A stretch of DNA of 44,085 nt from Lachnospiraceae bacterium (lineage in GTDB: Bacteria > Bacillota > Clostridia > Lachnospirales > Lachnospiraceae), in NCBI GenBank assembly GCA_017460885.1, contig JAFUAB010000028.1:1-44085 (forward strand), read 5' to 3'. Positions 179 to 33,022 of this stretch are shown here, one piece after another (within the stretch, counting starts at the first letter, position 1; each line of letters begins with the position of its first letter). The notes beneath the pieces were generated by a model. That model saw only the letters and a program-made list of their open reading frames with translations. It was not told the origin of the DNA and searched no databases. The position numbers and the translations under genes are program-made.

Positions 179-652
179 ATGGATCAGTTCTTTGCGGACA
201 CGACCACGGTAGAACTCAACTGGTTCTCGGAGGAGAAGGATCCTGAGAAGCTGACGGAGGAATACGGCAACCTGACCTATGACAAAGAGAAGGGCTATGA
301 TATCAAAGAGGCGGATGCCGATACATTGCGTCATGTCGGCCATACCAGGGGAGTGACGGTCAGAAAGTCTTTCGACAGGATGCCTGAGGGCTGGAACGAT
401 GTTGTACAGTCCATCTATATCCCGAACAGCAAGCTGAAGGTTGAGACCGTTGAGATGGATCAGTTCATGAAGTCCGTCAAAGGCTGGAAGGAAAAGGTGG
501 ATGACATACGTAAACGATCCAATGACGGAAGGATGGACAAGAAGAAGGCCGAGAAGGATATATCGGAGCTGTGTAAATATGCTCCGGAGGATGTTCTGAT
601 CGGAGGAGAACGGTCACCCCTTAGGAGGATAATCAATGTCTCAGGTAAATAA
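122..652 (+). pseudogene. Truncated remnant of a papain-like giant protein (C-terminal tail only)
   Basis: The frame is open from a TTG at 122, but neither that TTG nor the ATG at 179 has a ribosome binding site. From about residue 17 the product aligns with the end of the papain-like domains of the two giants downstream. MDQFF...VELNWF matches VSQLF...IELVWL, EKLTEEYGNLTYDKEKG matches EKIADEFNLNFNEETG, and DVVQSIYIPNSKLKV matches DVVLNTVYVPKKIKV. The parts carrying the catalytic Gln, Cys, His and Asp are absent, so no peptidase activity is expected. About 70 charged residues follow this region. Its stop overlaps the start of giant A by 17 bp, so it may still couple translation. I read it as the decayed 3' end of a third papain-type giant; a small functional protein is less likely. 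Confidence 0.7.
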
Positions 653-3600
653 TCAGGAGCTTTTTAAGGAAAATAAAAATGACTCCCAACAGAAGAATCC
701 AATAGTCTTCACCTCTGAAAATAAGGAGATCGATCAGCAGATCGGCCTCAAAAGCAATGTGTCCTTACCTTCGGTAAACGGCAATGCCGGAGCCGATGTG
801 GGTGACATGAAGACAGAAGAAAAGAAGTCCGGCAGTGCAGACTCCCAACAGAAAGCGCAAAAGGAAAATGAGCTTGTCAATGTCGCTCCCAGGGTCATAC
901 GCGAGATAAAGAATGTCGCAAATAACGCGGCCGGCGCAGAACCGCAGGATGCGGACGAACAGCATCTGACCCAAAAGCAGCGTGCGCAGAAAAAGCGCAA
1001 TGACGCCAAAGAAAAGATAAAGTCTTACCGTGAAGGCCTTCAGTCGATGGAGAATATCATCCTGACCGGAACCGCGGGCGCCCGCCTGCAAAGGGAAAGC
1101 TGGAGCCGGCTCGGAAGCATCAATAAGAAAAAGCGTATAGACGCGGCTCTTGAACGCGAAAATAACGCAGATCGCATTAATGAGTACTTACACAGCGCAG
1201 ACAGGGACAAGGGCGTTTTTTCGGAGGTGCATAATTCCGAGGAGGTGAAATCCTTTGTCAGCGATTTTCTGAACAATATCCAGGATGTGGAGTCCGATAT
1301 CGCCTCCGACGACAAATTTGTCAGCTCCCTTAAGTATAACTATTATCTGACCAGATATGCCGCCTGGATGAAGACGGTCATTACCGATGCGGCGGATAAG
1401 GGCTATCTTCCGGAGGGGATCGATCTGGATGCCGTTCAGCAGAAGATCGCTCATTTCGAGGAACTGAAGAAATATCTGGATGCCAGAGTGAAGGTCGTAA
1501 CGAGTCCTTATTATAAGTATTTCAGCAGTGAAGATGTGAATTACAGTGACGTACAGCTGAAGACCCTGATAGAGAATTACGATAAGCCCGAGAATGCTTC
1601 CACAAGGAGCGAGCATAGGGAGCTTTATGATTATCTGACGGCAGTCCGGGAACTCAGGGACATCGGGGTCAATCGTAAAAAGGGCATCGGATCCAGGGAA
1701 AAGATCATAGAGCAGCGGGCAAGGCATGAAGTCGAAATGATGCGTACCCGCACGGAGAAGAAGCACATCATCGCCGGGCTGACAGAGCAATCCCGGCGTA
1801 TCGTAAATGAAGGCGCAGCCGGCGCAAGGGATTATGCTAAGAGCTATACAACCGAGAGATTCAACATCCTCAAGGAGGAATTTGACCGTATCGGTATCAG
1901 CGATATCAGCTTCGGCAGCTTAAAGGATATGACCGACAACTATGAGGTTAACGCCGGTCTCTTCGAGCAGGCGCGTGAGATGCGCAGTATGTTTGAGACG
2001 GCGGGGCAGCGCGGAGATCTGAATGGCTGGAATGAGAACGATATCCTGAAGCTCAGAGCCAAGCTGCGCAGCTTTGATGCCATGGAGAAGTTATTTAATA
2101 ATCTCCGTGAACGCGTGATATCAAATCCTGCCGATATGGTCGAAAAATACACTTATGATGAGATACTCTCACAGGCTGTCAATATGACCAGAGAGGCTGA
2201 TCAGGCAGCCGATATCAGAGATTATCCCGGGTTCGGTTCCAATCTGGAGAAGCTCTATAAGTCCATCCTTAAGAATTATAAGGATGAGCGGAAAAAGAAC
2301 AAAGCCGGAAATAAGCAGGCTCAGAACGAAGCTGTCGCTGCCGGTCAGGAAGCTGTACATGAAGGAGCTCAAAATGCAGTCGCCGGTCATGAAGAAGCCG
2401 CAGCGCACGTATATGTTCCGGGCATCAACGAACTGATCGGCCGCTTGGGCAAAAGCTTCAGGGAGAAGAAGATCAAAGTTCATGACAGAGAGGATATGCT
2501 GACCAGAGCGGGCACCGACCAGCAGCATAAATATACTGTCAGAAATACCTTTGTCCTCAACCGGGAAAAGGTGGCTGATGATGTATTCGGGATCAAGAAC
2601 AGTCTGCCTCTTGAAACTAAGATGAAGCTTTCCGATGAAGCCCTGAATGATCTTGCTGCGCTTATGAACGGGATGTTTAAGCAGACCACTGCCGAGAGCG
2701 CCGGTAAGATGCGGGATTTTGTTGAGAGCTATGCCAATGACCGGGAACGGGATAATGCCATGGACCGACTGACTGAATCCATCCTGAACCTCCCTGTTGA
2801 GATCCGGTCGGTGGGCCCCTCAGGTGATGCTGTGATCGCCAATAACGCGATCATGCTCGAAGATGTCTCACGCAAGGCTTATGCCTTTAGAAGGCTCCTT
2901 GCGGATGAATCGAATTCGGAATATGTTAAGAAGCTCAAGAGCAGGCTGTCAGAGGGCGGGGTAAGTGACTATGACAAAGTCACGGCCAAGCTGGATCAGA
3001 TGTTTGCGTACTCCGATTATTATCGTGCATGTAAGCTGCTGATGACAGACAACTATTATATCCTTCATGGCAATGACGAGATAGGTATGTCAAATACACG
3101 CAGTATGACTCCCGAACAGCGCAGGGTCTATCAGCTGATCAGGCTGACCGAGGCTTACGCGAGGCGGATCAGGAGCGGAATGTTTGAGGGCAGAAGCACT
3201 GAGACCGGACAGGACAGATTACTGGACAGATATGAAAGGGAAAATGCGGGACAGGCGTTTCTGACCGGTCGTTCGGATATGTCAAAAGCGGATTGTTCGG
3301 CCGTTAAAAAATCACATCAGGATTTTTCCGACTTCCTGGACTGTGTAAGAAAAGAGGCAAACCCTGAAAATATTAAATATTTTCTGGTGCACTATGATCC
3401 CCGGCAGTGTCCGGGCGCTGAGAAATACCGGACTGAGGATGTTGAAAATATACTGCAGGCGATCAGGTTCCATTTTGCGGGGAATGATTTTGAAGATCCG
3501 CGCGTCAGGGAGAACTGGACGGCAAAAGAGATCAGGGTATATAAGAAGCTTATGCCATTCGGCTTTTTTACCGAGATCGGTGCTGACGGTAAGCCGAAAA

Positions 3601-6600
3601 CGGATGAGGACGGCAAACTGGTCAATACCAATGTGGAGATCCCGTATATGAGTATGACGCCTCAGGTGGTAAAAAACGGAAAAGTCGTGAACCAGGCTCC
3701 CGATGTAAAGGAAAACCTGTATGTAGCTCCTGCCATCCCCAGGTATATCAAATCTCTGTCACATTCGCTTTCAGATGAACTGCCGGAAGAAGAGCTGGCC
3801 GATATTTTGGACGGACTGACTTTTGTTATCAGGCATAAGCCCGATATGAACAATGCGGCTGTCAAAAAGTATGCCAGGGACAGATGGCTGAGATCCATAA
3901 AGAAGGTGTTTGATCTCTGGTACAATTCCCTCAAAAGCTTTGAACGTACCTACGGCAGTCTGAGCATGGATATGCCGGTATCCCTTTTTCTGCATACACT
4001 TGGAAAGGGACAGAAGGATTATATGTCAAGATCAGAATTTGCACAGGATATAACCCAGCTTGCGGGTGAACAGTCCGCTGTCTATGAAGGCGAGCCAATG
4101 TCGTTGGGTCAGATACTTGTGAAGGAGAAGCTTCTTGACCAGTCGGTACTGGATGATATGATCCGGAAAGGTGCTCAGTTATATCAGCTGGATGCCGGAT
4201 CATTGCATAATTATTATCAGATGTTTGATCTGAATTTCTCGGTTCCCGATGGTAATAATCTAACTATGTTACTTTCAGGCGGGAAGGATGCAATGGCTAT
4301 TAAGGATTATACCCGCAGGAATGTCACTATAGACGGTCCGGCTCTGAAACAGTCGGATCAAAGGAAATACTGGAAGCAGGCCATGGCTTCGGGATACAAG
4401 GGATTAACGGCTTCAAAGGAAAGGATGGATAATGTAAAAAAATCCCTTAAGCTGTTAAGCACTGCCGAACGCAATGATCTAAAGAGACAGAGAGAAAAGG
4501 ACAAAAACATTTACAATAATACCTGCAAGGTCTTAGGCGTCAGAGCAAAAAATCTGTATAACGAAACCATCGACAGATTAAGCGCTCATAATCTTTCGGC
4601 TGCGGACAAGGCGCTGGTCAGAAAGATGGTGGCATTCCATCCCGGACTCAATAAGGATGCCGATGATACCAAGGCCGGATACGTCAAGGACAGAGATGAG
4701 TTTATGACCAATTTGACGGGCTTCCTCGGACTGGGAGAGCAGGATGCCGCTAAGATAAAGGAAAACAAGGCTAAGGCATTTGAGTATTTCTGCGCAAAGG
4801 CTTCGAAGCTTGCTAATTATTCAAAAGGTGTTGTCGCCTTTGACAGCGAGGATATCATGTCCTCGGATAATGTCAGGGAAATCAATGATGTGGTACTGGA
4901 CAGCAAGCTGGTCAAAATGGAAGCCTGTCATATGATGTTTGACGCGCTGCAGGATATGGCATCCGACAGAAAGGAACTGAACTGGACTACGCCAAAGCTG
5001 AAGAGGCAGTTTGACAGAGGACTTCTGGAAAATCTGAGAATTGAGATCATACGCAGTACCATGACCGACAGCTATTACCTGAATCTGGGGGATCTGGGAG
5101 ATGAACACAGGACATTAAAGGGCTGCAGGTACAACCTGCTTCAGGGTCTTGGGGAATATAAAACACAGTATATGATGTATACGCTGGAGAAGGACGTGCT
5201 CGGCGATCCCGAGACCATGGATGCCCTCAGGGAATTCGGAATCACGATCAGGCCCATGACCGTCCCGGAGGAGAAGCAGGAGGAAAAGAAGGAAGAGAAG
5301 AAGGAAGAGAAGCAGAAGGCCGAGGGCGCCGATGATGAGAAACAGGATGATAAGTCCAGTCTGATGGATATAGACGATCTTCTAAATATGAGCGGCGGAG
5401 AAGAGGATATTCAGGATGCTGCACCGAATACGATAAATACGAATGCGGAAAAATTAAAGACCGGGAATGCCGGCGACAATAAGATCAACGTCGATGAAGA
5501 GATAGCGGAACAGATCAATAAGAAGCTGTTCTATGAGCTTCCTGCGGTTAAGTATGATGAAAATGTGACCGCTCCCATTAACTGGAAAAATAAGCCGGTT
5601 GCTTATGAAAGTCAGGGTAAGGGCAAGGTATATTGCTGGGCATGCGTGATGTCAGGGCTTATGAACTCCTATGCGGGAACCAAAGTCACATCACTTGGCG
5701 ATATCCTGAAACATCCCTTTAAGATCCCTTCATTTAAGGATTCGGGCATAAAGGATCGTAAGACCTATGATGAGGGTGTCAGCCTTATCAAAAAGATGTA
5801 TGCGGGCAAGGAGTACGGCAATCCCGTGATCCTGGGCGATTATATACAGGAGAAGCTTCCCGACGCGGCAGTCAGGACTGCGATGATCTCGCGGGAGGAA
5901 GGCAGACTTCCCTATTGTAAGCGCAGGTTCCTCGAGACCCTCAGCAGCAATCTGAAGAAGGGTCCGATAGGTATGCTGGTGGGCGGCCATTATGTCATGA
6001 TCCGGGAGCTTCGGGGAGATGTACTCATGGTGAATGATTCCATGGGCAGAGACCCCGATGCGCTGGTTCCGTACTACAGCACGGTATCGCAGCTATTTGG
6101 CAGGGTCGGAAAAGAGATAGAGCTTGTATGGCTTGAGAATACTGCGAACCGCGAGAAGGAGGTTGCGGAGGAGTTTGACCTGGGATTCGACGAAAAGACC
6201 GGCGAATATTCCTTCAGGGAAGCACTGCCTCAGGGTAAGCTTGCACCGGGGCAGGTTAAATTCGATCAGGTTCACAACTCGGAGACGATCCTGCACAAAA
6301 ACGGTATCGAAGCCTCGGCTAATCTGGTCGACGACGTGGTATTCAATTTCGTTTACCTGCCCAAAAAGAAGAAGGATGACAAGAACAGGATCAACGATAA
6401 CCCTTCCATATACCCGGCATCCTCATACATGCAGATATCGCCCGAGGAGGACAAGATCGGCCACGGTCAGATCACGGTACAGGAACTGGAAGCCTTTTTG
6501 GGAAAGGATACCATTACCGAAAGGCTCTCAGATCAATACGAAGGATTTACCAAACCGGTCAATGCCATACTGCCGGATATACAGGGTGATAAGGCGGAAA

Positions 6601-9600
6601 CCGTTAAGGCCAAAAATGATATTCGGGAGCATTTGCTAAAGGAGCAGAGAGAATATATCAGATATCGAAAAGAAAAATCGGCTCATACCGCTCCGTATCT
6701 TCATACCGCACCATTTCGCGAGCAATACATCGATGGTGATCAGATGGATCATCATCATAAGAATCCGAAACTCAGAGCGGCATTTCGTGAGCTCATGATC
6801 TCACGCAACAGCATTTCACAGAGTATTACTGCGAATTCCGCAATGCTGACCCATTTCTTTGCCATGGAATTTATGAATGGTGTTGTAAAACCTCTGGCGG
6901 AGCTTGATCTTAAGCAGTTTGAGATCAGGGATGATGCCGGGTTTGTAAGCCGTTTTGGCGAAAAGTATGATCAGCTATGCAAAATCGAAGCTTATGAGGA
7001 ATACTGCAGGTTATATTGCGATGGATTGGACAAACAACGCGGAGGCAACAATCTCTGCGCTTTCAGGGCCAAACTCGAATTGATGAAGTCGATCAGGACA
7101 GCTTATGAGGACAGGATGAAGCTGATATCATCCCCGTATTATACCCTGCTTGGAGCCGATTATATGAAGTCATTTGCCGGAAAAGGAGGCGAGGATCGCC
7201 TGGAGGCATCAGACCTGGATGCGGGTATTAAGGATTATATCAGGCTTTATAACAGGGTCATGGCAAATCCTCTGACAGCGAATGGGATCAATAAGGAATA
7301 CCGGACTGTTCTGGACAGGATCCAAAGAACCGAGGGCGAGGCGGATATAGCCAGAGTAAAGGCCTTCCTTAAGGGGATAAAACCGTCACTGTCTAATGCA
7401 GAGATACTTGAAAAGGCATACAGCAAGGCGGCAAAGGCAAATCTGAAGGCAATCGAAAAGGATGATATTAAATTCCTTAGAACCGGAAAAGTATTTGGCG
7501 TTCTGGAGATACAGGCATTAACTATGGAGGAGAAACTCGCATATAACCATGAGCTTGCGGATATCCTCGAAAAAGGAACATTCAGAGGAACCAGACTGAG
7601 TGAGGCCGTTCTTAAAAAGCTGAGACCGATGATCCATCAATATGCCGAGAACAAGAGAAAATATGATGCGGCTGATATTGCAAAAACCGGCATAGACAAT
7701 CTGACCGGATACGCTTTGGGATGTGATACTAAGAACCCCGTGTATGCGGATTCGGATACCGGTAAGCTCATAAAGCGTTTGAGCGACGACGATGCTTCAG
7801 TGCTTGAGGTCGACCGGATCATTACAGCAAAGAATAAGGTGCTTTTTGATAATGCATACAATTCCAGGTGCAGTCTGATCGATATCTTTGACACCATTAT
7901 ACAGAGCAATGTCACTTTTAATGCCGGGCTTCAGGATAAGATGAATGATAAAGAACTCAGCGATGCGGCATTGAACAAAGCAGTTGGGGAACTTGAAGTA
8001 AAGTCGATCCGTGTCAACGGTGAGAAATACCAATTGTATTTTGCCGATAATTTCCTGACGGGGCTGGATGAACTCGATATCAGGATGAAGGCGTCGGACC
8101 AGGCCAAGCTCTCCGGACTGATAAACGGGATGATCGAAAACGGGAAGAAGATGTCTGTAGTATCCGGCTTATATTCCCAAAAATCCGGCGACAGTATAAT
8201 GCTTGACAGGATACATTTGAGACATTTTAAGGACACAAACAGGTCCGATATGGCCAAGGTCATGAAGCTCCTGAGTAAATACGGGGTCGATGCCTCGGGT
8301 GAGATTCCCGTCAAATACCGCATGATGAAACAGGTGGGACCGTACAATAAGTCCTTTAATGAAAAATTCGTCGGAACCTTCAGTATGCTTGAAAAGGAAA
8401 TATCAGAGTATGTTGAGAAGAACGGAAATGATAAATTAGATACGGGCAACAGGCTCTACACAAGCCTGGCTTCCTGCATGTATCATCTGAACCAGGTGTC
8501 ATTGGATGGCTGCAGGCGTATGGCTGAAAGTCTTTCCATTAATAACATCAATTGTACGACTTATGAATTGAATGCCAAGGCCCGGGCATATGATCAGATA
8601 TTCCATGCGGTCATGCAATTTAACCTGTCCAGGTTCCGGATAGACAAGCTGGATGATATCCTTGATCCGAAGCATATGGAAGCGAGACTTATGGTCACGA
8701 TGATGAGCAATTTTGATGAGGCGCGTTTCAGGGAATATGAGGATCTTATCGATAATAAGGAGGTTAAGTGTGCACTGACCAGGGAACAGCTTAATGAGGT
8801 AAGGGCTCGATACAGACTTTTTGCCGATCTTCGTATGTTTGGTACCTATGCCGATTTATATGAGAAGGCAAAGGATCTGAAGGTTGACATCAAAGCAGAA
8901 CTCAAAAAAAGCTCCCAAACGCTGATGGAGGAATCCGATGCTAATCTGCCGGAGGAAATGGAGAGACTCAATTTCCTCGCTGATCTGGGCGCATTAAAGC
9001 GGGACATCGAAGAAGGCGCTTTCAGATTCGGCGAAGATCCGGCTATGGCTCTTGAACGCGTACGTACCAAAGATTACAAGCTCGGTCCGGGTCATGAGAA
9101 TATCGAAGAGGCCAGAGAAAATCTTGAAGCGAGAATAAGAGTGGCGCCTTCGGATGATTTTGAGAAATACGAACCCTCGGAGAAGACAAATTATAAGCCT
9201 GCCGTAAGTCAGACTCCTCACGCCGATAAACTGCGGAAGCTGTATGAGAAGATCGATTTTGAGTTTGCGAACAGCGGACTTTCCAAAGAGAAGCTTCAGG
9301 AGATGAAGGATAACCAGAAGGAGTTATTTGAATATAACCTTACCTATACCTACAATGTGGATGCGGAGCTGCTGAACGAGTTGGGCAAAGACAACAGTGT
9401 GGATTCCAGAGGCATTATGATGCTGCTCAGACCGGTACATGTTGATGAACAGGGGCAGCCTTTGACCGATATTGACAGGAAAAACAAGGAACTCAATAAT
9501 GAAGATGCCAGAAAATTCCTGTCAGGTTCACTCAAGGAAAGAAAGCCGCTGCTGGACAGATTTGCCGAAGAGGTCGACAGACTGGTCTTTACCGATGCGG

Positions 9601-10310: not shown

Positions 10311-10320
10311 TGCACAGGTA

Positions 10321-10362: not shown

Positions 10363-10379
10363 AATGAGAAAGGGGAAAA

Positions 10380-11201: not shown

Positions 11202-11206
11202 TTTCA

Positions 11207-20264: not shown

Positions 20265-20294
20265 AACCGGACGACACACTGACACCAGGATTTA

Positions 20295-20303: not shown

Positions 20304-20356
20304 AAAAAGAAGCATGTGATTTTATCAACAGTCTGAGGTAAGGAAAAGGAAACCAA

Positions 20357-21334: not shown

Positions 21335-21356
21335 CAGATTAAGAAGGAGTATAGAA

Positions 21357-24300
21357 ATGGCAGAATTATATAAGGAACAGACATTTGAGGAATGGAAGGC
21401 TGAGGAGAAGCGTAAAGAGCAGCATTTTGCCGCGGTAGACGAATCCCTGCTCAGACAGAAGGACGAGATCACCAAATGGATGGACACATTCCAGAATCAG
21501 GAAGATTACATGACCTCAGTCAGGCAGAAGACGGATGATGTCAACCGGAAGCTTGCATCGGAGATCAAGGGCCTGTTTGGGGTCAACAGCGCCGTACCGC
21601 TCAAGAGGAAGGCACCCGATCAGACCGTGCCCGTTGCCAAATACTGGTGGCTGTCACGTCACAGAGAGGCGAGCCGGCTTAAAAAGGCCCAAAAGAAATA
21701 CGGTCAGTACATATCCGTCAATTCCCTCCGTGAGCGGAAGGATATGAACAGCTACGAAAAGATCCGTGAAATGCAGCGGAATGAAAGCGACAGTTCAAAG
21801 CGCACCTACTGCAAGAAGGCAAAGTTCGAGGTCAAAGGTTCATCCATGTTGGCTAAGGATCTTAAGCTCGGAGTTGAGATCGATGGCTACGACAGACTCG
21901 TCAAAAGATATAAACTGGATGATGCCGAGAAATATTATATAAGGACCGATGAGATAGAGAAGGGGCTTACTCCCTTTATGGCCATGCAGAAATCCAGATG
22001 GCTCTTCTGGAAAAAGACCGTGGGAGCTCTCGGTACCGAGACCAGAGAGGAAAAAAACGACGCTGCTGAATATAACAAGAACCTTATGAAGCGATATACC
22101 AAGAGTAAGGAGGGATCTCCCGAGAGGACAGCGGTTCTGGACGAGCTCAGAGCCAAGTTCCAGAATTTCAGGATCACGCCCGAGATGCTGACGGACAGAT
22201 ATCTGGCCGACAACAGCATACAGCTGCGCAGATTCGCGGAAATGACACAGGCCTTTCGCATACTGATAGCGACCAATCCCGGTTATCTCGAGACGCTGAG
22301 TGAGGAAGACCGCATCATGCTGGGCAATACCCTCAACTATACAGGTCCGCTGATCCTGGATTTTCTTGAGCAGCATCAAAGGTACAAGCATATTACCATG
22401 TCGGGGCGCAAAGCCGTCTTCAGGGACAAAGCGGACGATGATCTCTCCAAAGAGAACGATCAGCTCAGAGTGGACACATGGAATAAGATTCACGCGGCCG
22501 ACATAGCGGAGCAGGCTAAGATCGGGCTCAGCAACAAAAGAGTGCAGAAATATCTTACGGATATTGAGGATGAAGCTAAGGCGCGCAGGAAGAATGAGGA
22601 ACTGCCCGCTTATGCCATCACTCTCAAATATGACAATATCGGATATGATGAGGATCGTCTGCTCACCGTTCAGAATAAGATCCGTGATGAAAACGGTGCC
22701 TACGAGCTGGTCGGAGCCGATATGGAGAAGCTTTTCGGTCAGTATTCAAAGGATGTCATAACCATGAACACACTGAGTGCCAGGATAACGGCACTCTCAA
22801 AGGCCAAGGAAGACCACGAAAAGGCCCTGAAAGAGAGCAAGGGCAAAAAGGGAAATGTCCGCAGATACAGTGCGTTCATTGATTATGCCGAGGCCGAGAT
22901 AAATAAAATGAATCAGGATAAGACCACTCTGCAGCAGCGGTCCAATGAGTATGAGCTCGCCCTTGATTATGTCACAGGTATCAGACTGACAGATGATGAT
23001 ATGCAGATCCCCGGGATAGAGGAGAAGTATAAGGATACTGTCGCAAAGGTCCTTAAGAACGAGGATCTCTCATTCCTGCTCCGGCTTGAAGACTGCCGCT
23101 TCTATGCTAAGGAATTTACCGAACTGACAGGAGGCGAGTTTAAGTTCCGCACGGTCATGAAGGATGCCATCGCCAGAGGCAGGGGCGAGGAGATGCGTAT
23201 CCATACGGAGAAGTTCGAGAAACTCGAAAAGGATTTCGGCGACCACAAGCTGGAAAATTACCAGATATTTGCGCTTAAGCCCGAGGCACTGGAGAAATAC
23301 AATTTCAACGGTTTCATGGACAGGAACGGAGTTATGCATAAGGGAGCCCTGGATCTGACGGATGAAGAGAACTTCAAGCATATGATGGAGCTTAAGCATA
23401 TCGCCGAGGCTGACTACAAGGAACTGAGAATAGCATGTACAAGGATGTGCATGGATAATGGGTATTCGGATGCCGAGCTCCTTGATCATCACGATGATCT
23501 TGAGATCAAATATAATATGCTCAAGGACTATTACCAGAAGTGGAAGGGGGCATATGATGCCCTCAATAGTGAGTCATACAAGTTCCTTGCACAGGTTCCG
23601 GATATGGAGGGACAGAACGGTATATTCAAGGATCCCAAGGTGTTCGCGGGCTACAAAGATACCCTGCAGAAAAAGTTGGATAAGGTAAAGAAGGATGATC
23701 CCGGTTCGGCCGATGTGAAGCGCTATGAGGATATGATCAGGCTGATGAACGGCATGATGCTGCGTAACGGCATGTTCTCCGAAAATGACGAGGATGTCAG
23801 GGTGTTGAATGCGGAGACTTATCATGCACGGATAAAGCAGCTTAAATATGATCGCCGTCTCGAGAAAATGATAAAGTTTTTTAAAGAATCCAGAATGCTT
23901 GATATAGAGAAGGACAGACTGATCAAGATGGCACAGGATGTCATACTGTATGAGGACAGATATGCCAAACTCGCCGAAAAGCACGGAAAGACTCTGGATG
24001 ACAATCTGATGCAGGCCGAGCTGGACAAGAAGCTTGCAAAGGCCAAAACAGAAGATGATAAAAACGCGGTTAAAAGTGAATATCTGGCAGGCAAGGCTGT
24101 GGAGATACTGGAACTGCGAAACAAGCTGACTCCACAGTTCTTTACCGAAGATTATATACATGATAATTTCGAAGAATTTGCAGAGACCGCACTTACTATC
24201 AGAGATTTCGGTAAACTGGTCAAAAACCAGGAGGATTTTGATCTGATGGAGCAGGGGCTGTCGGAGGAAAAGAGAGATGAGTTAGCCGGAGCCGTAGATG

Positions 24301-26816
24301 TGATGCTCCAGATCTCAAATGATATGGAACTGCTGCTTTATTCCGCGTTCTCAGCTCATTCCGTAGATTTCATGACAGGCAAGATCGGTGCCAAGGCGGA
24401 TATTATCCGCAAAATGTTCAAGATACTGCCGGATGATAAACTGGCACAGGAGTATCGGGACGGCGTTAAGGAGATCAACGAAATTCAGGATAAACGGAAT
24501 GCCAGAGCCAACAAACAAGTGACTCTGGATGAGGCCAACAGGCAGCTTAAGCTGGCTGCTCAGGACAAGGAACTTTACATGCAGGCATATACGAGCGAAA
24601 GTGAACTTGCGGAGGATTATCTGGACAAGACACTGACCGATCGTCTGCAGAAGCTTCGCAGCCGCGATTATTTTGCCCCCGACAGACGCAGGATGCTCGA
24701 TCTTCCCAATTCCCCTACAGAGGAGCTCTACCGCTATCTGTATGAGGATAAAGAGTTCGGTAAGCTTAATCTGTCCTACGAAGGTAACAAAGAGGGATGG
24801 GACAAGGCACTTGAAAGCGCATTTAACAAGACCAGCTCCTACATCTTCTTCAGGGGTCTGTCACAGGAAGCCAGAAATGTGGCTAAGGATATGATGAAAA
24901 ATCCTCAGAAGATCGAGGATTATCTGCAGTGGAGGGCACGTCAGGATTCCAGAGTCTATATGAACGAGCGCAGCAAGGCGCTGGGTATCAAAGAGTCCGT
25001 GGAGGACACTGCGATCGCTTATGAGATCATGAATTCCATGGAGGAGACCCATACCTCGGTACACAATTCGGCTAACAGGAAGATGCGCCTTACGGTATTC
25101 CCCGAACTGGAGAAAAAGGGCATCGATCCCGAACAGTTCATGCATCTGCTCCGCGTGGTACACCGCAACACCTCGGGTCTGGCCGGTCGTTTGGTTGATA
25201 TTACGAACCAATCCGTCAATATGAAGCGGTCCATGCAGTATCTGAGCGCCGAAAACAAGAGTGAATTCATACTTCAGGCTACGACCGAGGTAATGAAGTT
25301 TGAACTCGAAGATAACATGCTGTCCGAGGAATATTTAAAGCAGCCGGGCAATTTCAGCTATATGTATTTCATGGCGCAGAAATTGAAGGCTTATGAACAG
25401 CTCTATATGAAGGACAGGGAGTCGGTTGAGAAGGCTCTTACAAAAGACACGGATCACAAGGCACTCTTCCAGAAGGTTCATGAACGGTTCGGTACCTTCT
25501 ACGGCAATATCTCGGATCAGGTATACAGGCTTGTCATGAACTTCGCAGCCAAATACGGTGTAAACCAGCAGGGTGTCCGCACCTTCGGCCTTGATGAAGC
25601 CGAATATGAGCAGCTGACACAGGAGGGCCAGACGAAGACCTTTGCATCCAGATCCAAAGAGAATATGAAGCAGGCCGATAAGGACTTCAATGACAACGTG
25701 ACCGGGATACGCAAACGTAACGCGCAGCGTAAAGCCGCTATCGGGGGTGTCGATGCGATACATAAATACGATACCTATGGATTTGAAAAGTGGCTTACCG
25801 AAAAACCGAAGCGCAGCAAAGATATCGTAAAGAATATCAGCGCTGACCAGCAATATGCCGACAATAAGATCGTGACCGGCGGCATGGAGAAGGCCATGCT
25901 CATGGAGGATAGATCTACTGCCCGCAAGAATGCCAAAAAGAAGGTCGAGAAGCTTGACAACCGTTTCCGTGTCGGAGATGTGGCGTATCTGCTGACAAAG
26001 GAAAACTATGTGGAGAATCTGAGATCAGACAGGGAGCAGGGAGAGAGAAACGACGGCGTACTGCGACTGATGGATCTGTTCTCCGACAACAGTGTGCTCC
26101 AGATGAATTTCCTGCTGGACAGAAACCGTCTGGATGACTATCTCGAAACATTTGAGAGGAACGAGAAGCTCCTGTCGGACGCGGGGAAAAATATGGCTTC
26201 GGAGGAATTCCTGGAGAAGAATCTGACCGAGCAGTTCTTCATTGATGCCAGAACAATGGCCGTTGTGGCACTTTTGCCCACGATCATCCCGAACCTGTTT
26301 AAGGACAGCTTTATCAAGCAGGCCGGACCTACCGAAAAGTCTGTCAAAAACAGTACGGAATACGAAGACCGGGATAATGCCTTCAATATGCTGACGCAGC
26401 AGAGTGATCTGATCAGAAAACAGGCTATGGACGACTTTAAGAATGACAAGATCACCAAAGAGCAGTTTGACGATATGATAGGACAGGCAAATGCGCTTCA
26501 GAAGCAGGCTTATGTGAATGAAACGGACCGAGACCGCCTTTTGCCCAAATTGAAGGATACAAACAGGGACGGGGTAATTGCCGGTATCGCGAAGCTTAAG
26601 AAATACATAGGCACCGAAAAGCAGCGCGAGCTCTACAAGAATCTCGGTAATTTTGTGCAGAAATATGTCCGCGTATGCGGAGTGAACCTGGATTCTCCGG
26701 ACAACAGTATCGGAGCTCTTGTTTCGGGGATGAATGAAGACAAGCTGAAGACAGCTCAGGAGAATATTGTCCTTGATTTCAAGGACAGCATGAATGCGCT
26801 AAAGTCATCGATATGA
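21357..26816 (+). CDS. Giant C: 1819-residue helical protein, no catalytic domain recognised
   Basis: The reading frame is open from 21174, but the ATG at 21357 has AAGGAG 7 bp upstream and follows the GNAT2 stop, so I use it. The product is highly charged and predicted almost wholly helical, with few cysteines and no signal peptide. A weakly conserved helical unit recurs at about residues 262-360, 921-1010 and 1303-1400, with the pattern F.[IL]..E.L...Y......F......[LM].AF/Y..L. It resembles units in giants A and B (for example FDFKSYMDLI...F..CY....AVEAVNYMDAYKAL). There is no papain, kinase or nucleotide-binding motif. It could be a scaffold or structural partner of the catalytic giants. 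The function is unknown. Confidence 0.85.
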   Translation: MAELYKEQTFEEWKAEEKRKEQHFAAVDESLLRQKDEITKWMDTFQNQEDYMTSVRQKTDDVNRKLASEIKGLFGVNSAVPLKRKAPDQTVPVAKYWWLSRHREASRLKKAQKKYGQYISVNSLRERKDMNSYEKIREMQRNESDSSKRTYCKKAKFEVKGSSMLAKDLKLGVEIDGYDRLVKRYKLDDAEKYYIRTDEIEKGLTPFMAMQKSRWLFWKKTVGALGTETREEKNDAAEYNKNLMKRYTKSKEGSPERTAVLDELRAKFQNFRITPEMLTDRYLADNSIQLRRFAEMTQAFRILIATNPGYLETLSEEDRIMLGNTLNYTGPLILDFLEQHQRYKHITMSGRKAVFRDKADDDLSKENDQLRVDTWNKIHAADIAEQAKIGLSNKRVQKYLTDIEDEAKARRKNEELPAYAITLKYDNIGYDEDRLLTVQNKIRDENGAYELVGADMEKLFGQYSKDVITMNTLSARITALSKAKEDHEKALKESKGKKGNVRRYSAFIDYAEAEINKMNQDKTTLQQRSNEYELALDYVTGIRLTDDDMQIPGIEEKYKDTVAKVLKNEDLSFLLRLEDCRFYAKEFTELTGGEFKFRTVMKDAIARGRGEEMRIHTEKFEKLEKDFGDHKLENYQIFALKPEALEKYNFNGFMDRNGVMHKGALDLTDEENFKHMMELKHIAEADYKELRIACTRMCMDNGYSDAELLDHHDDLEIKYNMLKDYYQKWKGAYDALNSESYKFLAQVPDMEGQNGIFKDPKVFAGYKDTLQKKLDKVKKDDPGSADVKRYEDMIRLMNGMMLRNGMFSENDEDVRVLNAETYHARIKQLKYDRRLEKMIKFFKESRMLDIEKDRLIKMAQDVILYEDRYAKLAEKHGKTLDDNLMQAELDKKLAKAKTEDDKNAVKSEYLAGKAVEILELRNKLTPQFFTEDYIHDNFEEFAETALTIRDFGKLVKNQEDFDLMEQGLSEEKRDELAGAVDVMLQISNDMELLLYSAFSAHSVDFMTGKIGAKADIIRKMFKILPDDKLAQEYRDGVKEINEIQDKRNARANKQVTLDEANRQLKLAAQDKELYMQAYTSESELAEDYLDKTLTDRLQKLRSRDYFAPDRRRMLDLPNSPTEELYRYLYEDKEFGKLNLSYEGNKEGWDKALESAFNKTSSYIFFRGLSQEARNVAKDMMKNPQKIEDYLQWRARQDSRVYMNERSKALGIKESVEDTAIAYEIMNSMEETHTSVHNSANRKMRLTVFPELEKKGIDPEQFMHLLRVVHRNTSGLAGRLVDITNQSVNMKRSMQYLSAENKSEFILQATTEVMKFELEDNMLSEEYLKQPGNFSYMYFMAQKLKAYEQLYMKDRESVEKALTKDTDHKALFQKVHERFGTFYGNISDQVYRLVMNFAAKYGVNQQGVRTFGLDEAEYEQLTQEGQTKTFASRSKENMKQADKDFNDNVTGIRKRNAQRKAAIGGVDAIHKYDTYGFEKWLTEKPKRSKDIVKNISADQQYADNKIVTGGMEKAMLMEDRSTARKNAKKKVEKLDNRFRVGDVAYLLTKENYVENLRSDREQGERNDGVLRLMDLFSDNSVLQMNFLLDRNRLDDYLETFERNEKLLSDAGKNMASEEFLEKNLTEQFFIDARTMAVVALLPTIIPNLFKDSFIKQAGPTEKSVKNSTEYEDRDNAFNMLTQQSDLIRKQAMDDFKNDKITKEQFDDMIGQANALQKQAYVNETDRDRLLPKLKDTNRDGVIAGIAKLKKYIGTEKQRELYKNLGNFVQKYVRVCGVNLDSPDNSIGALVSGMNEDKLKTAQENIVLDFKDSMNALKSSI

Positions 26817-26883
26817 CCGGTGACGGCAGTTCACACTGTCATCGCGCAGGGTGCAGCCTGTATTGCTGTGACTGAATAAACTT

Positions 26884-27744
26884 ATGAAACTCAGAGAAAT
26901 AACAGAGGAAAATATCAAAACCTATAGTGATATCATCCCACCGGATTTTGTGGTCGAGATCAGAAGGGAATACTGCAGAGGACTGGCAGGCCTGAGTGAT
27001 GATTCCGAGGAACTGACGGCTGCGGTCTTCTGGGATCTTAAGAATACCGAGGATGAGAATGTCCCGACAGAGATCGAGATATTGTGGTTCTATGCTGTCA
27101 ATCCCGAGGACGGGGCGGGCATACTACAGGCGCTTGAACTCAATACCGAATACGACGATACGGGCAGGATATTCTTTGAACTGCCCGGGCTCAGCGAAGC
27201 TGAAGAGCAGGCCATGACCACAGCCGGATACTCGATACAGAGCGCCGAGAGCCGTGATGTCTATGTGACCGTCGGAGAGATGGCCGCCCTTAAGCTATCC
27301 AAAGCTCCGCCACCGGACTACGTGAGACCGCTGTCCGAGATTACATCGCGCAATTTCAAGACAGGTATAATGACCAGCGTTTTTCATGGCAAATACGGAT
27401 TGCTGGACGACCTGCCGTTTTTGCCGATGACACGTTATGATCCCGAAGTTTCCTGTTGCGTCCAGACGGATGACAAGCTTAACGGTTTTCTGCTGGTGCA
27501 CAGGATGGAGTCGGGTGTATACAGGGTCGAGCTGTTTTACGCAATGGAGCCCGATGCAAATGTGAACCTGCTCAATATGCTACGGTTTTCGGTTCAGGCA
27601 GCTGCTACGCACAAATCGCAGGATGACCGGATATTGCTCAGAAGACACAACAAAGCTACCCTTCAGCTGATCGGAAAGCTCTTTCCGGGCAGAAAGGGAG
27701 AGAATGTATTACGAGGTGAAAGGAGAGTAACCAATGATCTATGA
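26884..27744 (+). CDS. GNAT3: degenerate tandem GNAT-like protein, 286 residues
   Basis: It begins MKLREITEENIKTYSDIIP, the signature of the cluster's GNATs. The acetyl-CoA loop is reduced: FYAVNPEDGAGILQALEL keeps G-x-G but has lost the leading Arg/Gln. The second half (from about residue 143) repeats a GNAT-like pattern, YVRPLSEIT...NGFLLVHRMESGVYRVELFY. It lies 67 bp after giant C and its stop overlaps the GNAT4 start by 11 bp. No strong ribosome binding site is visible, so translation may be weak. It may have lost catalysis and work as a binding subunit with GNAT4; that is inference. Confidence 0.7.
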   Translation: MKLREITEENIKTYSDIIPPDFVVEIRREYCRGLAGLSDDSEELTAAVFWDLKNTEDENVPTEIEILWFYAVNPEDGAGILQALELNTEYDDTGRIFFELPGLSEAEEQAMTTAGYSIQSAESRDVYVTVGEMAALKLSKAPPPDYVRPLSEITSRNFKTGIMTSVFHGKYGLLDDLPFLPMTRYDPEVSCCVQTDDKLNGFLLVHRMESGVYRVELFYAMEPDANVNLLNMLRFSVQAAATHKSQDDRILLRRHNKATLQLIGKLFPGRKGENVLRGERRVTNDL

Positions 27745-28741
27745 AGCGATCGACAATGAGAATCTGGAATATTATCAGGATCTGATACCGGGGCCCTTCA
27801 AGCATTTTGCCCATTTCGGGGCCGAGACCGTGATAGGCGCGGCAGCGGAGGCTGAGGATATCAAATATGCGGCCGAAGATCTCGGAGAGCTGAAGGAGGC
27901 ATCCGGACCGGACAGTGTTATACCCTGCGGGATCATCATGTTCAGTCTGGCTGATCCGTTTAATATCACCATTGACTGGCTCTATGTGGATACGCCTTTT
28001 CGAGAGCAGGAGGTTGGCATTGATCTGCTGAATGCTGCCTACGAGATGGCTCAGAGTGCCGGTTACGGATATCTGCGTATCAGGGTCCCGGATGATGCCG
28101 TGGCCGACTATATGACACTGCGTGGGTTTGAACCCGACAGCGGCAGGCACAGGGAATGGTTTGCAGAGATAAAGGATATCGCGGGCATCACTGTTCCGCA
28201 GGATGATGAGTCATATCTGTGCGGTGCCTTCCGTGAGCTGACCAGGGATGTGGTGGAGTCCCAGATCGATAAGCTGGTCAGGACAGAAACACCCTTCCCG
28301 ATAGTTCCGTATCAGATAGATCCCGATCACAGCTTTATCTGCTCCAAGGGCAAGACCATAGTCGGTGTCCTGATCGTGGAGAAGGTAGACGGTGTATACT
28401 GTCTGGCAGCCCTGACCGGGGAGGATAAGGTGCGCAGGACACTGATAGCACAGGCTCTGGATTCCTTTAAGGGTATCGATGCGGAGGATGAGTACCTGCA
28501 CATCAGATCCTGGTCGGATGAGGGAGATGCACTTGGCGATGAGCTGATCACCAACATCGAGGCTGACAGCTACATTACCCTCAGAGCGCTTCCGAACGGT
28601 CTTGATTATGCCTTAGAGGATATGGAGGAAACGGAACGGCTGGCAGATGAATGTGCGGAGGCTGAAGAAAACTTCCCTAAGGAGCTGGTCATAACGGATG
28701 TGGAATATTACAGCGGAATGATGGTTGAGGATGAGGCGTAA
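27734..28741 (+). CDS. GNAT4: tandem GNAT-like protein, 335 residues
   Basis: The ATG has GAAAGGAGAG upstream and overlaps the end of GNAT3, indicating translational coupling. It starts IYEAIDNENLEYYQDLIP. A GNAT core follows: ITIDWLYVDTPFREQEVGID, where the loop is R-E-Q-E-V-G instead of R-x-x-G-x-G, then a YLRIRV strand and YMTLRGFEPD, as in GNAT motif B. The second half (from about 160) has FRELT...IVGVLIVEKVDGVYCLAALTG, close in pattern to the second half of GNAT3. The first Gly of the loop is Glu, so acetyl-CoA binding is uncertain. It lies directly upstream of the kinase-like giant D. Confidence 0.75.
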   Translation: MIYEAIDNENLEYYQDLIPGPFKHFAHFGAETVIGAAAEAEDIKYAAEDLGELKEASGPDSVIPCGIIMFSLADPFNITIDWLYVDTPFREQEVGIDLLNAAYEMAQSAGYGYLRIRVPDDAVADYMTLRGFEPDSGRHREWFAEIKDIAGITVPQDDESYLCGAFRELTRDVVESQIDKLVRTETPFPIVPYQIDPDHSFICSKGKTIVGVLIVEKVDGVYCLAALTGEDKVRRTLIAQALDSFKGIDAEDEYLHIRSWSDEGDALGDELITNIEADSYITLRALPNGLDYALEDMEETERLADECAEAEENFPKELVITDVEYYSGMMVEDEA

Positions 28742-28780
28742 AGCATATATTTCTGAGAAAACAGTAGGAGGAGATAAGAA

Positions 28781-31700
28781 GTGTCACAATTAGATAACAG
28801 TTATGATAATAGTTATGATGATAGTTTTTATGATAACAAACAGAGAGACAGCTATGCGTCCAATAACAGCTACAATGATAACGAGATCAATACAAACTCC
28901 AATCAGCTGCGCGAAAGTCTGGACCGCAAGAATCTGATCGAAAGAAATAATAAAAAAGCTCCTCGTGTTGTCGAGGATGAACATGGGATCATAAAACTGG
29001 ACGATGAGGAACAGGAGGAAGAGCTTGATGAAAATATAAATATCAAAAAATCCTCCAAAAAGTCATCCCAAAAGTCCAAGTCCGCCAGGAAACAGACTGC
29101 CGCCGAAAAGTACAAGGCCACGAGAAAACCCTTCAATCCCAAACTCAACGAAGCGCTCAGAAGGACGGTCAGTTTCCATATTACCAGGGAGGACGAGTTT
29201 GAGGAACAGAATGATGCAATATACAGATCCAAAACCTTCGATGCGAGCATGAAGAGGCTTCGCAAGTGGGAGAGCAGGACTGAGAGTGAAAGTGAACGTT
29301 TGAGCTATCTGGACAGGGTGAAGCTGCAGAAGAATGCGCTCAATGTACAGCTCTCCCGTGTGAATCGTGACAAGAAGCACAGATTCTTCGGCCTCGGGGA
29401 GATGGAAGACAACAAGGAGATGCAGATCGTCAAACAGCGCTCCAGGACGCTGCAGAATGTTCTTCGCTGCAATCGTGATCAAATGGAGGAAATGGGATTT
29501 CTCGACAAGGAGACCGGCAGATTCGATCCGGATAAATTTACTTCCGTCATAGACCAGCTTTTTGAGGCGACCATAGCTGCCTGTGACAATTATCTGGATA
29601 CCCATAAGGGCAGCCGGTGGTTCTACGGTTCCCGTCGTAAAAAGAAGATCAATGAGCTTAAGGATCGTCTGCTTAAGGAACAGGAAAAATATAAGAAGAC
29701 ATACTTTGCCATAGCAACCGGAGCCTTTCTTAATGACAGGGCAGATAATATCCAGAGCCCTCAGGATCTGATAGAGCATCTTAATGTAGTCACGATCAAG
29801 GATCCGGACTATCAGAGACAGGGTAATTCGACGGACGTATATCTGGTCACGGTAACGGGAGTTGACGGTAAGCAGGAAACGAAACGGTATTATATGAAGG
29901 AGAATCTGCCGCTGCTCCACAAGGATATGGACGGTTTCCTCAAGAGAAGATCCAACCAGCTCTCAAAATCCTGGGAAAACAGGCAGAACGTCGAAGCGCT
30001 CAAAAAGAAAGCAGCAGGTAAAAAGAAAAAGACCAGGGAAGATGCCGTAAAAACTCTGAACACACTTAAGTCCCATCAAAGAGAAGAGCTGCGCATGGAG
30101 AGCGCTCACGCCGATGAGACCGATTACCAGAACGGTCAGGAGCTCCTTAAGCTGATGCAGGACAAGATCGACGGTGCAGGCCTGGAGGAAGCCAATGTAC
30201 TCAGACAGAAGTATGCTGAGTTCTTTAAGCATGACTTTGACGAATTGTTCAAAAAACTGCCTAAGATAAACGAAGAGATAGCCAAGCGTAATGTCGGCTA
30301 TATGCCTATAGGTCTGGATGAATGGGAGGAAAAGACAGATGATGTCTCTGTGGAGATAACCAAAATACTGAAGACGAATAAACTTGATCCTATGAAGATC
30401 AGGGAGATCCCTCTGTATACTCCCGCAACATTTTTGATATCGGAGCTCAATCTTACCCCGGCAGCTGATTCCGAACTGATCGATTTCATTAACAAGGTAG
30501 CCGGACAGAAAGTCAATACCCAGATGAAGACGGAGGTAATTGACGATACGGCTGCAGATGCCGAAAACCTTATACAGGATGGAGATAAAAAGAAGGCAGC
30601 TAAAACCAGATTTGTACAGACGAGCCGCCTGGAGGCACTCTTCAGGATCACCATGGGTAAGGAGGTAGAGCTCTATGGCCAGGTAATGAAGAACAAAAAT
30701 AAAGAAGAGGCCGAGATGGCTCAGTACAACACCCTGGCAACCAGTCTGCTGGCACAGGATTACGGCTTCTCCGAGGAGGTGGTCAACACACATGTCTCAA
30801 CGGCAGAATTCGAGCGCTGGGACGGAACGAGAGCCAATGACGTGGTCACCCTCCAGGAGATCGCCGAGGGAGAGGAATGGATCGAGGTCTGCAAAAAGGC
30901 AAAGAGGATGGGCAAGAGTGTCAGACTCAGTCCGGAGGCTACCAGAAAGCTGGTTCGTCTCCAGATGTTTGATACACTCTGTCAGCAGCAGGATCGTCAC
31001 GGCCGTAACTTCAAGTGTAAGACCAAAAAGGATAAGGATGGCAATCTTGTAGTATATGACATCAAGTCATATGACCACGATCAGAGCTTCGCAAGCGGAG
31101 GTCTCGGTGACAACTTTAAGGAAGCCAGGGACGAAGACGGCAAACTGGTCAGGGCCGAGAAGAACCGCTTCCTGCCTACGACGCTTAAGGTGATCAAGAA
31201 AACGGATCCGGAGTTCAGATATATTGCAAATAAATACTTCAATATAAATGTTCCGGCACCAAAGGATCTGATGAAGGAGATCAAGGAACCAAAATACGAT
31301 ATCAAGCTCAGCAGTCATCTCAAATCATATCTGCCGATACTCGGTTTCGGAATGAAAAAGGTAGAAATAACCGAAAAAGTCATGCATGATGGAGAATGGA
31401 TCAGAACTAAGCATGATTGCAGAGCTAATCCCTTCGGGATCCATTGGGGTGATGAGGCGAAGAATGGAAACGCTATTATTGCCAGTGACTTTAAAAATGA
31501 TAAAAACTCCTGGATCAAAAAAAGAGATTCGGATAAGGAACGTGTCTCAAAAGGCGAATTTGACAGAATTCTTAGGAATGTCGCTAAATGCGCGGTCATA
31601 CTTGAGGATCTCTTTATAGGAGATAAGTATGCACCCGGTGAAACAACAGTCCAGGAAGTTACGTCCATTAGAAAGAAAAAAAATGCACCGAAGGAGTTTA

Positions 31701-33022
31701 GCCCGAAGAATTATGAAGCGAAGAAGTTTGTCATGGGAAAATGTCTGCGCACTCAGGCAGAAATGAAGCAATGGAAAAAGGATCATCCCGACCAGTTTAA
31801 GGAGGTAGCCAGGGCATTCAAGGAATTGGCGGAATTGAATTCCAAATATGATTTTTCCGAGCTTACGGTTAATGTTGAAGAAGCGGAAAGAGTTTGCTTC
31901 TCGCATTTAAGTGATAAGGAGCAGGAGTATTTTAAGGGCTTTAATCCGCCAAAAGATGATTATGATGCAGCATACAGAATGGGTCAGGACAGAAAGAAAC
32001 TGTTTCCGGCATGGATAAATGAGACGCTCTGGAGCTTTAAGCAGGCATTTCCGGATGATGCGGACGTTAAGGAGGCGATGGTCGACAAGGTTGATTATAA
32101 GCCAAGCATGAAGGAGTTTATGAATAAAAACGGAGATCTGGAGATCCCGGGACTGCTCCATGCCGATAAGGCGGCTTATGATAATATCCTTAAGATCATC
32201 AAGGATTACGAAGACGGTATCCTCAAAAATAAGCTTGATGGAAAGAAGCTGCCTGTTGACGCCCAGGAAGGCATGTATAAACGCGCTGTCGAGATGAGGG
32301 ATCGCTATAAGTATATGCAGGAGAGGGCGGAGAAGTTCCTTAAGATCAAGTACTGGAATAAGCCCGAGAATGATCCGCACCGCAGATTCTTCCTGAATCC
32401 GGAGGACTATAGTAAGCTTACGGATGTATCGGATTACGCCATAGATCCGGGTGACAGCTACCTCGTACAGGATAACGAACAGTACTTAAGCGCACAGCCG
32501 GACTTCCAGGAGTTCATGACAGCCGAAGAGAAGAATACGAGACTGGAGGCCCGTCAGGCCGTAATGTCGGACAGCAAGCGCTGGAAGGACGTGGCTCCCT
32601 CCAAGCTGGAAACCGTTGTATCCGGTTCCATCTATGATGAGGATGAAGAGGATGAACTGGAGGAATTCCGGTGGTCTTCGGAGGAGGACTATGTCCAGGA
32701 AGCCAAAAAGAAAGGACTTCTGACCGACGGACTGATCCTGAAGGACAATAAGGGTAATCTGATCCAAGAGGATAATATCATCCAGGAAGAGATCCGGCAG
32801 AACGGCGAAGTGTTGTTGAATTATAAGAATAAGGACGATAAGGAAGAAAAACTTTTAATCGACACTATAAATAAAAAGGGTAAGAAGAGCAGCACCAAGA
32901 GCACATCCAAGAGCAAAACCGCCAAATCAAAGACGACCGAAAAGGATAAGAGCAAGAACGCCAAGTCCAGGAACAGCAGGAAGGTAATCTCAAAAACGAT
33001 CACCAACGATGACGACGACTGA
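28781..33022 (+). CDS. Giant D: 1413-residue protein with a kinase-like (PI3/4K-, HipA- or FAM20-like) core
   Basis: The GTG start has GGAGGAG 8 bp upstream. Residues 1-60 are Asn/Tyr/Ser/Asp-rich low complexity; about 75-115 mix acidic and Ser/Lys runs. A possible N-lobe strand with an invariant-type Lys is at about 355-376 (YLVTVTG...RYYMKENLPLL, Lys373). A hinge-like VVTLQEIAEG is near 690. DRHGRN (738-743) is followed by YDHDQSF (Asp765, Asp767), the catalytic-loop and metal-binding arrangement of PI3/4-kinase-like, actin-fragmin-kinase and HipA/FAM20-like folds. About 310 residues, much of them helical, separate the Lys from the hinge, so there is either a large insertion or a different Lys. 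The C-terminus is a basic Ser/Lys/Thr tail ending in four Asp. No TM or signal sequence is seen. Phosphotransfer to protein or small molecule is a prediction. Confidence 0.8.
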   Translation: MSQLDNSYDNSYDDSFYDNKQRDSYASNNSYNDNEINTNSNQLRESLDRKNLIERNNKKAPRVVEDEHGIIKLDDEEQEEELDENINIKKSSKKSSQKSKSARKQTAAEKYKATRKPFNPKLNEALRRTVSFHITREDEFEEQNDAIYRSKTFDASMKRLRKWESRTESESERLSYLDRVKLQKNALNVQLSRVNRDKKHRFFGLGEMEDNKEMQIVKQRSRTLQNVLRCNRDQMEEMGFLDKETGRFDPDKFTSVIDQLFEATIAACDNYLDTHKGSRWFYGSRRKKKINELKDRLLKEQEKYKKTYFAIATGAFLNDRADNIQSPQDLIEHLNVVTIKDPDYQRQGNSTDVYLVTVTGVDGKQETKRYYMKENLPLLHKDMDGFLKRRSNQLSKSWENRQNVEALKKKAAGKKKKTREDAVKTLNTLKSHQREELRMESAHADETDYQNGQELLKLMQDKIDGAGLEEANVLRQKYAEFFKHDFDELFKKLPKINEEIAKRNVGYMPIGLDEWEEKTDDVSVEITKILKTNKLDPMKIREIPLYTPATFLISELNLTPAADSELIDFINKVAGQKVNTQMKTEVIDDTAADAENLIQDGDKKKAAKTRFVQTSRLEALFRITMGKEVELYGQVMKNKNKEEAEMAQYNTLATSLLAQDYGFSEEVVNTHVSTAEFERWDGTRANDVVTLQEIAEGEEWIEVCKKAKRMGKSVRLSPEATRKLVRLQMFDTLCQQQDRHGRNFKCKTKKDKDGNLVVYDIKSYDHDQSFASGGLGDNFKEARDEDGKLVRAEKNRFLPTTLKVIKKTDPEFRYIANKYFNINVPAPKDLMKEIKEPKYDIKLSSHLKSYLPILGFGMKKVEITEKVMHDGEWIRTKHDCRANPFGIHWGDEAKNGNAIIASDFKNDKNSWIKKRDSDKERVSKGEFDRILRNVAKCAVILEDLFIGDKYAPGETTVQEVTSIRKKKNAPKEFSPKNYEAKKFVMGKCLRTQAEMKQWKKDHPDQFKEVARAFKELAELNSKYDFSELTVNVEEAERVCFSHLSDKEQEYFKGFNPPKDDYDAAYRMGQDRKKLFPAWINETLWSFKQAFPDDADVKEAMVDKVDYKPSMKEFMNKNGDLEIPGLLHADKAAYDNILKIIKDYEDGILKNKLDGKKLPVDAQEGMYKRAVEMRDRYKYMQERAEKFLKIKYWNKPENDPHRRFFLNPEDYSKLTDVSDYAIDPGDSYLVQDNEQYLSAQPDFQEFMTAEEKNTRLEARQAVMSDSKRWKDVAPSKLETVVSGSIYDEDEEDELEEFRWSSEEDYVQEAKKKGLLTDGLILKDNKGNLIQEDNIIQEEIRQNGEVLLNYKNKDDKEEKLLIDTINKKGKKSSTKSTSKSKTAKSKTTEKDKSKNAKSRNSRKVISKTITNDDDD

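Follow-up and report, generated by a model that had tools for sequence, protein, structure and literature searches.

The window, a contig of 44,085 nt (C6) from the 3.6 Mb, 55-contig genome of a Lachnospiraceae bacterium (G000; other G numbers denote its relatives), encodes four giant proteins (A-D; 3224, 2999, 1819 and 1413 aa) along with four small proteins made of two GNAT halves each (tandem GNATs, GNAT1-4). The open reading frame (ORF) calls agree with the sequence-only reading on these eight genes and on their single strand; longest ORFs were called, and wrong starts and spurious ORFs are possible. The analysis suggests that the giants are probably payloads of an extracellular contractile injection system (eCIS), and that the tandem GNATs are cargo-specific partners which act before loading. 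This reading rests on the pairing of the genes, on their linkage to and co-occurrence with eCIS genes, and on catalytic motifs, from which we infer the loading, the injection, the target and the action of the GNATs.

The eCIS cluster of the same genome is located at C51:59192-105948. A Pfam scan of 20 proteins revealed a sheath (PF04984 and PF17482), a tube (PF06841), two CIS_tube proteins (PF19266), a spike (PF04717), gp25 (PF04965), baseplate J (PF04865), Tail_P2_I (PF09684), a Pvc16_N cap (PF14065) and DUF4280 (PF14107), besides AAA+ ATPases; PF05954 stayed below cut-off. Genes for sheath, tube, baseplate, spike and cap are thus gathered within one cluster, as characterizes an eCIS. ATPases of the loading type are represented by PF00004 in C51:103498-105948 and 105953-108208, with PF22977 just below cut-off. 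The best PDB matches of the sheath are contractile sheaths, including Pvc2, Afp3, 7b5h, 7adz and 8bky, and the list for the tube is similar. No phage head, portal or terminase protein was found among the scanned proteins, several ORFs of the cluster being without a family and no search having been aimed at these functions. Synteny of the cluster extends to G001, G003, G216 and G165, and also to G012 and G002 over the stretches examined. Inside it, C51:65921-79053 holds three large ORFs (1243, 1349 and 1776 aa) whose starts resemble signal peptides; a MORN-repeat ORF and a STAS protein are also present, and together these suggest an envelope-linked, stress-regulated particle.

Giants and tandem GNATs adjoin the eCIS genes on both sides in G000 (C51), upstream in the sister species G001 (C4) and G003 (C7), and downstream in G216 (C1), a member of another genus, where they are interleaved with AAA+ genes. 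A single GNAT lies next to eCIS genes in G244, G012, G165 and G313. Two relatives of giant B (43 and 38% identity) are part of the eCIS-linked run of G001, and giant D has two paralogs on C51, one of which (C51:55789-59115; 28% identity, E 2e-66) ends 76 nt upstream of the first eCIS ORF. A sensor histidine kinase and response regulator pair recurs beside giants or eCIS genes (G000:C51:39053-41075, G001:C4:110645-112731, G003:C7:68064-70147, G216:C1:100001-101508 and G008:C26:7221-9305), the families being confirmed for the G003 pair only and G008 being a genome without detected eCIS.

Co-occurrence of the two components was evaluated in samples of 299 family and 391 class genomes, drawn from larger groups. 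The best few candidates were scored per genome (3 for giant B, 8 for the tandem-GNAT family scan, 8 or mostly 2 for the others), and absences are lower bounds. A tandem-GNAT match required E<=1e-8, and a full-length one at least 200 of 280 positions. Matches were recorded in 29 of the 299 family genomes and were full-length in nine (G000, G003, G012, G029, G116, G165, G216, G244 and G313), whereas Pvc16_N was present in 25 of the 299, in 24 of them over cut-off. Eight of the nine genomes with a full-length tandem GNAT also have Pvc16_N (p=6.4e-9). The association persists on removal of the bacterium's own genus (6/23 eCIS-positive genomes with a tandem GNAT vs 1/274, p=7.4e-7) and on removal of the genomes that contributed to the profile (5/22 vs 1/274, p=8.2e-6). 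For kinase giants, the counts are 5/25 eCIS-positive genomes vs 5/274 others (p=5e-4). The eCIS tube family PF06841 occurs in 10 of 37 chosen genomes, namely all seven of the genus, G216, G165 and G012; it is absent from the 18 controls, which were chosen for having no giant-B match, and from nine others with a papain or kinase match. At the class level, full-length tandem GNATs were recorded in 4 of 391 genomes, G000, G216, G550 and G063 (of another family), and those of G550 and G063 are paired with ORFs of 512-2843 aa. Since the identity of Pvc16_N to the own protein splits into 69-78% in GNAT-positive and 31-38% in six GNAT-negative genomes, the tandem-GNAT module appears to go with one eCIS lineage.

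Pairing of GNAT and giant was monitored at loci chosen by their GNAT match alone, with 63 ORFs of the same loci as controls. An ORF of 500 aa or more lies next to 23 of 28 full-length tandem GNATs on the same strand, as compared to 8 of 63 controls (p=2e-10); for at least 1000 aa the numbers are 10/28 and 1/63. The large neighbour may stand on either side: across 63 GNATs, the neighbouring ORF has 500 aa or more in 37 of 56 cases downstream and in 35 of 50 upstream. Furthermore, GNAT similarity is correlated with cargo similarity over 53 pairs (r=0.54, equalled in 0 of 5000 permutations), in the own genome (13 pairs, r=0.62, 1/5000) as well as in other genera (24 pairs, r=0.41, 0/5000). Conserved giant and GNAT pairing, proposed in the sequence-only reading as the test of a system, is borne out by its recurrence in several genera and at many sites, and the two thus form a system. 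The converse possibility, independent occurrence, has a mixed outcome. Most of the GNATs examined have a large neighbour; some giants do lack a tandem GNAT, such as C55:40676-45628 in the own genome, with no neighbouring GNAT, and the papain and kinase giants of G008 and G196.

The four giants belong to three families, because A (636-10310, + strand) and B (11265-20264, +) have N and M modules as well as a papain-like domain in common, whereas C (21357-26816, +, ATG at 21357) and D (28781-33022, +, GTG start) match neither in BLAST. All are long, charged and helical, K/R/E/D making up 31-37% of residues, and no family exceeded cut-off when they were scanned with Pfam and NCBIfam. The papain-like domain occupies residues 1621-1917 of A (5496-6386), which continues into a long C-terminal part, and residues 2174-2475 of B (17784-18689). 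The papain-like and kinase-like assignments made earlier from the sequence alone are confirmed by motif alignments. In the papain-like alignment, Q40, C47-W48 and H165 are invariant and D/N precedes S182 in 7/7 rows, which reproduces the peptidase order Gln, Cys, His, Asn/Asp; the Gln, Cys-Trp, His and Asp/Asn-Ser positions are present in A. PF12385 gave a weak match in two of six papain-like members scanned and none in A or B, and no significant match came from a PDB profile search with this domain (best E 0.74).

The kinase-like core of D (29786-31270, about residues 336-830) contains GNSTDVY, YYMKEN, DRHGRNF (738-744) and YDHDQSF (764-770), and stands between an N-terminus that is polar and repetitive and a C-terminus rich in Lys and Ser. 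D, R, H and N of DRHxxN, together with DxDxSF, are invariant in 8/8 rows, so that the D family has the catalytic DxHxxN and metal-binding Asp of PI3K/HipA/FAM20-type kinases. Weak matches to PF00454 (PI3_PI4_kinase), PF07804 (HipA_C) and PF06702 (Fam20C) were obtained in three, three and two of the eight members, respectively. D resembles the HipA, PI3K-PI4K and FAM20 kinases in these motifs but itself matches HipA_C alone, at E=0.004 and below cut-off; the PDB profile search gave no significant match (best E 0.096). A and B are therefore best read as predicted papain-like proteins and D as a predicted atypical kinase. Relatives of giant B in the own genome lie on contigs C5, C35 (a duplicate of C5), C47, C24, C55, C26, C41 and C51, and among 79 relatives' genomes seven match, all of the own genus (own included), with 0 of 72 others. 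A scan of a named genome collection with the papain alignment located six loci in metagenome-assembled genomes (Lachnospiraceae, Butyrivibrio or Eubacterium), from sources including goat rumen, goat omasum and red deer; the same collection yielded no relative of D. A 3063-aa ORF with a signal-peptide-like start (G000:C41:32599-41790, - strand) adjoins a giant and half a GNAT, and a 97-aa Peptidase_C39 fragment (G000:C51:163132-163425) stands beside a GNAT and a kinase-like giant. C5 and C35 carry near-identical stretches which, with an estimated contamination of 6.6%, suggest redundant assembly.

GNAT1 (10380-11201, +, 273 aa) and GNAT2 (20357-21334, +, 325 aa) possess a GNAT domain (PF00583 over cut-off) with the acetyl-CoA loop of the N-half kept, as REQGAG and RSHGYG, respectively. 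In GNAT3 (26884-27744, +, 286 aa) and GNAT4 (27734-28741, +, 335 aa) the fold is recognized by profile and the loop is lost (VNPEDG) or altered (REQEVG); PF00583 is just over cut-off in GNAT4, and GNAT3, without any Pfam match, is still a full-length member by profile, so that three of the four window proteins score with PF00583. The C-halves are degenerate GNATs, as evident from the profile alignment of N-half to C-half (P=2.4e-6, probability 89%). The own-genome stretches examined contain 15 distinct full-length tandem-GNAT genes, C35 and C5 being counted once. Toxin-activating lysine acyltransferases of the HlyC type have a GNAT-like fold and a large effector gene adjacent to their own, a likeness drawn on in the sequence-only reading. 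The tandem GNATs differ from them in having two GNAT halves and an often lost loop, and the kinship is not supported: matches are to PF00583 and to ordinary GNAT structures, with none so named among the 57 PDB sequences that match the N-half at E<=0.01, and this identity was rejected for lack of a match to such a family in Pfam or in the 57 PDB hits.

That the GNATs are mainly enzymes, acyltransferases modifying the cognate giant as a switch to activate, silence or mark it for loading, is possible but rather unlikely. The loop [QR]xxGx[GA] is kept at the aligned position in 41 of 63 N-halves, and an unaligned count gives 46/63 against 5.9 in shuffled sequences. It is, however, lost in 22 of 63, including both GNATs beside D, and the C-halves have it in only 2 of 63; loop catalysis therefore cannot be the function common to all members, and binding would be the simplest function that is. 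One partner per cargo, the co-variation of the pairs and the position beside the cargo gene would also suit immunity proteins, antidotes with which the producer shields itself against the proteases or kinases among its cargo. This we consider improbable, since a single antidote fold would need to neutralise papain-like, kinase-like and unclassified cargo, all of which the GNAT family does partner, and since the known eCIS cargo class is not described as needing antidotes in the accessible portions of its literature.

The likeliest course of events, as predicted from gene content, is that the locus serves as the cargo locus of an eCIS from a Lachnospiraceae lineage, with the particle encoded on C51. 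The giants would be loaded, probably through disordered N-termini and an AAA+ ATPase, into the phage-tail-like particle and injected into a target cell, where the papain-like (A, B) or kinase-like (D) domains would act. In the producing cell, the tandem GNAT would be the dedicated partner of the adjacent cargo, binding it and keeping it soluble, inactive or loading-competent; about two thirds of the tandem GNATs, with the N-half loop kept, may also acylate it. In eCIS cargo, disordered N-terminal signals of 50-70 aa are reported to be read by the AAA ATPase Pvc15 (PMC11495950). The first 50 residues of the cargo here have a hydrophobic fraction of 0.244 vs 0.370 (50 vs 471 ORFs, p=2e-20) and a Q+N fraction of 0.152 vs 0.076, which fits a disordered loading signal as far as composition goes. 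By a rough estimate, a 3224-aa protein takes up ~430 cubic nm of the ~1380 cubic nm of a 4 x 110 nm lumen, and one giant could therefore fit.

Several observations weigh against the payload reading. The window contig C6 and the eCIS contig C51 are separate in the assembly, and a protein of 3224 aa is very large to be carried in a tube. Giant C has no relative in its own genome, in six other genomes of the genus or among the gathered ORFs, and hence none that would tie it to the eCIS. Of the 25 eCIS-positive genomes, 17 are without a tandem GNAT; G029 pairs a GNAT with a 2704-aa ORF and has no Pvc16_N match, at 60% completeness. Papain or kinase giants occur without detected eCIS in G008, G115, G196 and others, and the association of papain giants with eCIS is weak (3/25 vs 5/274, p=0.02). 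The correlation between GNAT and cargo is not significant within G216 alone (8 pairs, r=0.29, 377/5000), and gene pairs duplicating together would by themselves yield such a correlation. The N-terminal bias extends in part to the rest of the cargo (0.300 vs 0.358 over residues 100-300), and membrane proteins are among the ORFs used for comparison.

Part of this evidence also bears on what else the giants might be. As long, charged, helical proteins present several to a genome, they could have a structural, scaffolding or assembly role in the eCIS or in some other cytosolic complex, which is very unlikely: they vary between species, unlike conserved structural genes, as the lack of relatives of C in six other genomes of the genus illustrates, their catalytic motifs are conserved, and several loci lie away from the eCIS. 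It is just as doubtful that they act within the producer, for example in phage defence or signalling, the eCIS link reflecting a shared genomic island. Sensor kinases, response regulators, STAS and SpoIIE-type genes do occur among the giants, and giants with related domains are found in G008, G115 and G196 with neither eCIS nor GNAT detected; pairs at unlinked sites nevertheless co-occur with eCIS across genera. Of the two proposals made earlier, an effector system thus agrees with the eCIS linkage, and a large cytosolic assembly becomes the less likely one.

The toxins and effectors of PVC, Afp and other eCIS are comparable in that their ORFs vary, are mostly not homologous to one another and may lie near the tail-like cluster or elsewhere; polar N-termini and an AAA+ ATPase encoded within the cluster are further shared features. 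The cargo described here differs in reaching 3483 aa (G001), in its many copies per genome, in its frequent tandem-GNAT neighbour and in the absence of PF13699. The earlier statement that no system like this is described was too strong, as cargo genes near eCIS clusters are already on record (PMC8213781 and PMC11297309); the giant size and the GNAT partner look new. A full-text literature search, with subscription journals and preprints mostly outside it, returned no paper linking eCIS to GNATs and, among the papers listed, none on an eCIS in Lachnospiraceae or the rumen. It is suggested in PMC11297309 that PF13699 (eCIS_core, DUF4157) serves, in cis or in trans, as a chaperone of effectors, lying next to them or forming part of them. 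The tandem GNAT shares that position beside the effector but has a different fold. PF13699 was found in none of 13 genomes of the GNAT/eCIS lineage, G000 included (a GNAT was seen in 12, and none in the pieces of G006 examined), in which the position next to the cargo is occupied by tandem GNATs, nor was it found in G029; of the 17 eCIS genomes without a tandem GNAT, 11 have it (p=0.003 vs 8 sampled lineage genomes). A tentative extension, which we hold less probable than its negation, is that tandem GNATs form a new class of loading chaperones or adaptors, each specific to its cargo, which replace PF13699. They would let one eCIS lineage load and inject single polypeptides of up to ~3,500 residues that act as proteases or kinases, the recipients probably being rumen eukaryotes or microbes. 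If the reading is right, gut-type Lachnospiraceae would have an injection lineage carrying many very large payloads, the tandem GNAT would be a sequence handle for cargo that domain libraries do not name, and there would be a testable answer to how injection particles without PF13699 recognize diverse cargo.

Within the window, the + strand and the short gaps described earlier are borne out, the only overlap among the eight ORFs being that of 11 nt between GNAT3 and GNAT4; strict alternation is not, the order being A-GNAT1-B-GNAT2-C-GNAT3-GNAT4-D. A scan of 20200-34200 gave 14 terminator-like matches as compared to 12.6 expected, those on the + strand being one within GNAT2 and one beyond D. 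Positions 122-652 (+) encode the 3' end of a further, upstream giant, matching residues 2471-2623 of the giant C24:132661-140649 at 59% identity, and a piece on C26 stops at residue 2470 of the same C24 giant. As pieces matching the preceding parts lie on C26 and C24, the giant locus appears to start upstream of the window; the contig ends that hold these pieces have no exact overlap. Short inverted repeats resembling insertion-element ends occur at window 1-121, at the C24 end and at both C26 ends. These ends coincide, in homologous residues, with the points at which the pieces of the upstream giant break off and continue, as though its gene were interrupted, or the assembly broken, by mobile elements. 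A prophage remnant was set aside as an explanation of the window, which is without a structural gene, and PHROGs gave generic ABC and ATPase matches only for eight neighbours. Judged from their sequences, the ORFs beyond 33191 are presumably ordinary housekeeping genes. Two tRNA-Ser genes on the minus strand (42491-42581 and 43085-43171) flank a 105-bp tandem repeat at 42589-42864 (2.6 copies, 98% match), and a 32-bp repeat is located at 42356-42452.
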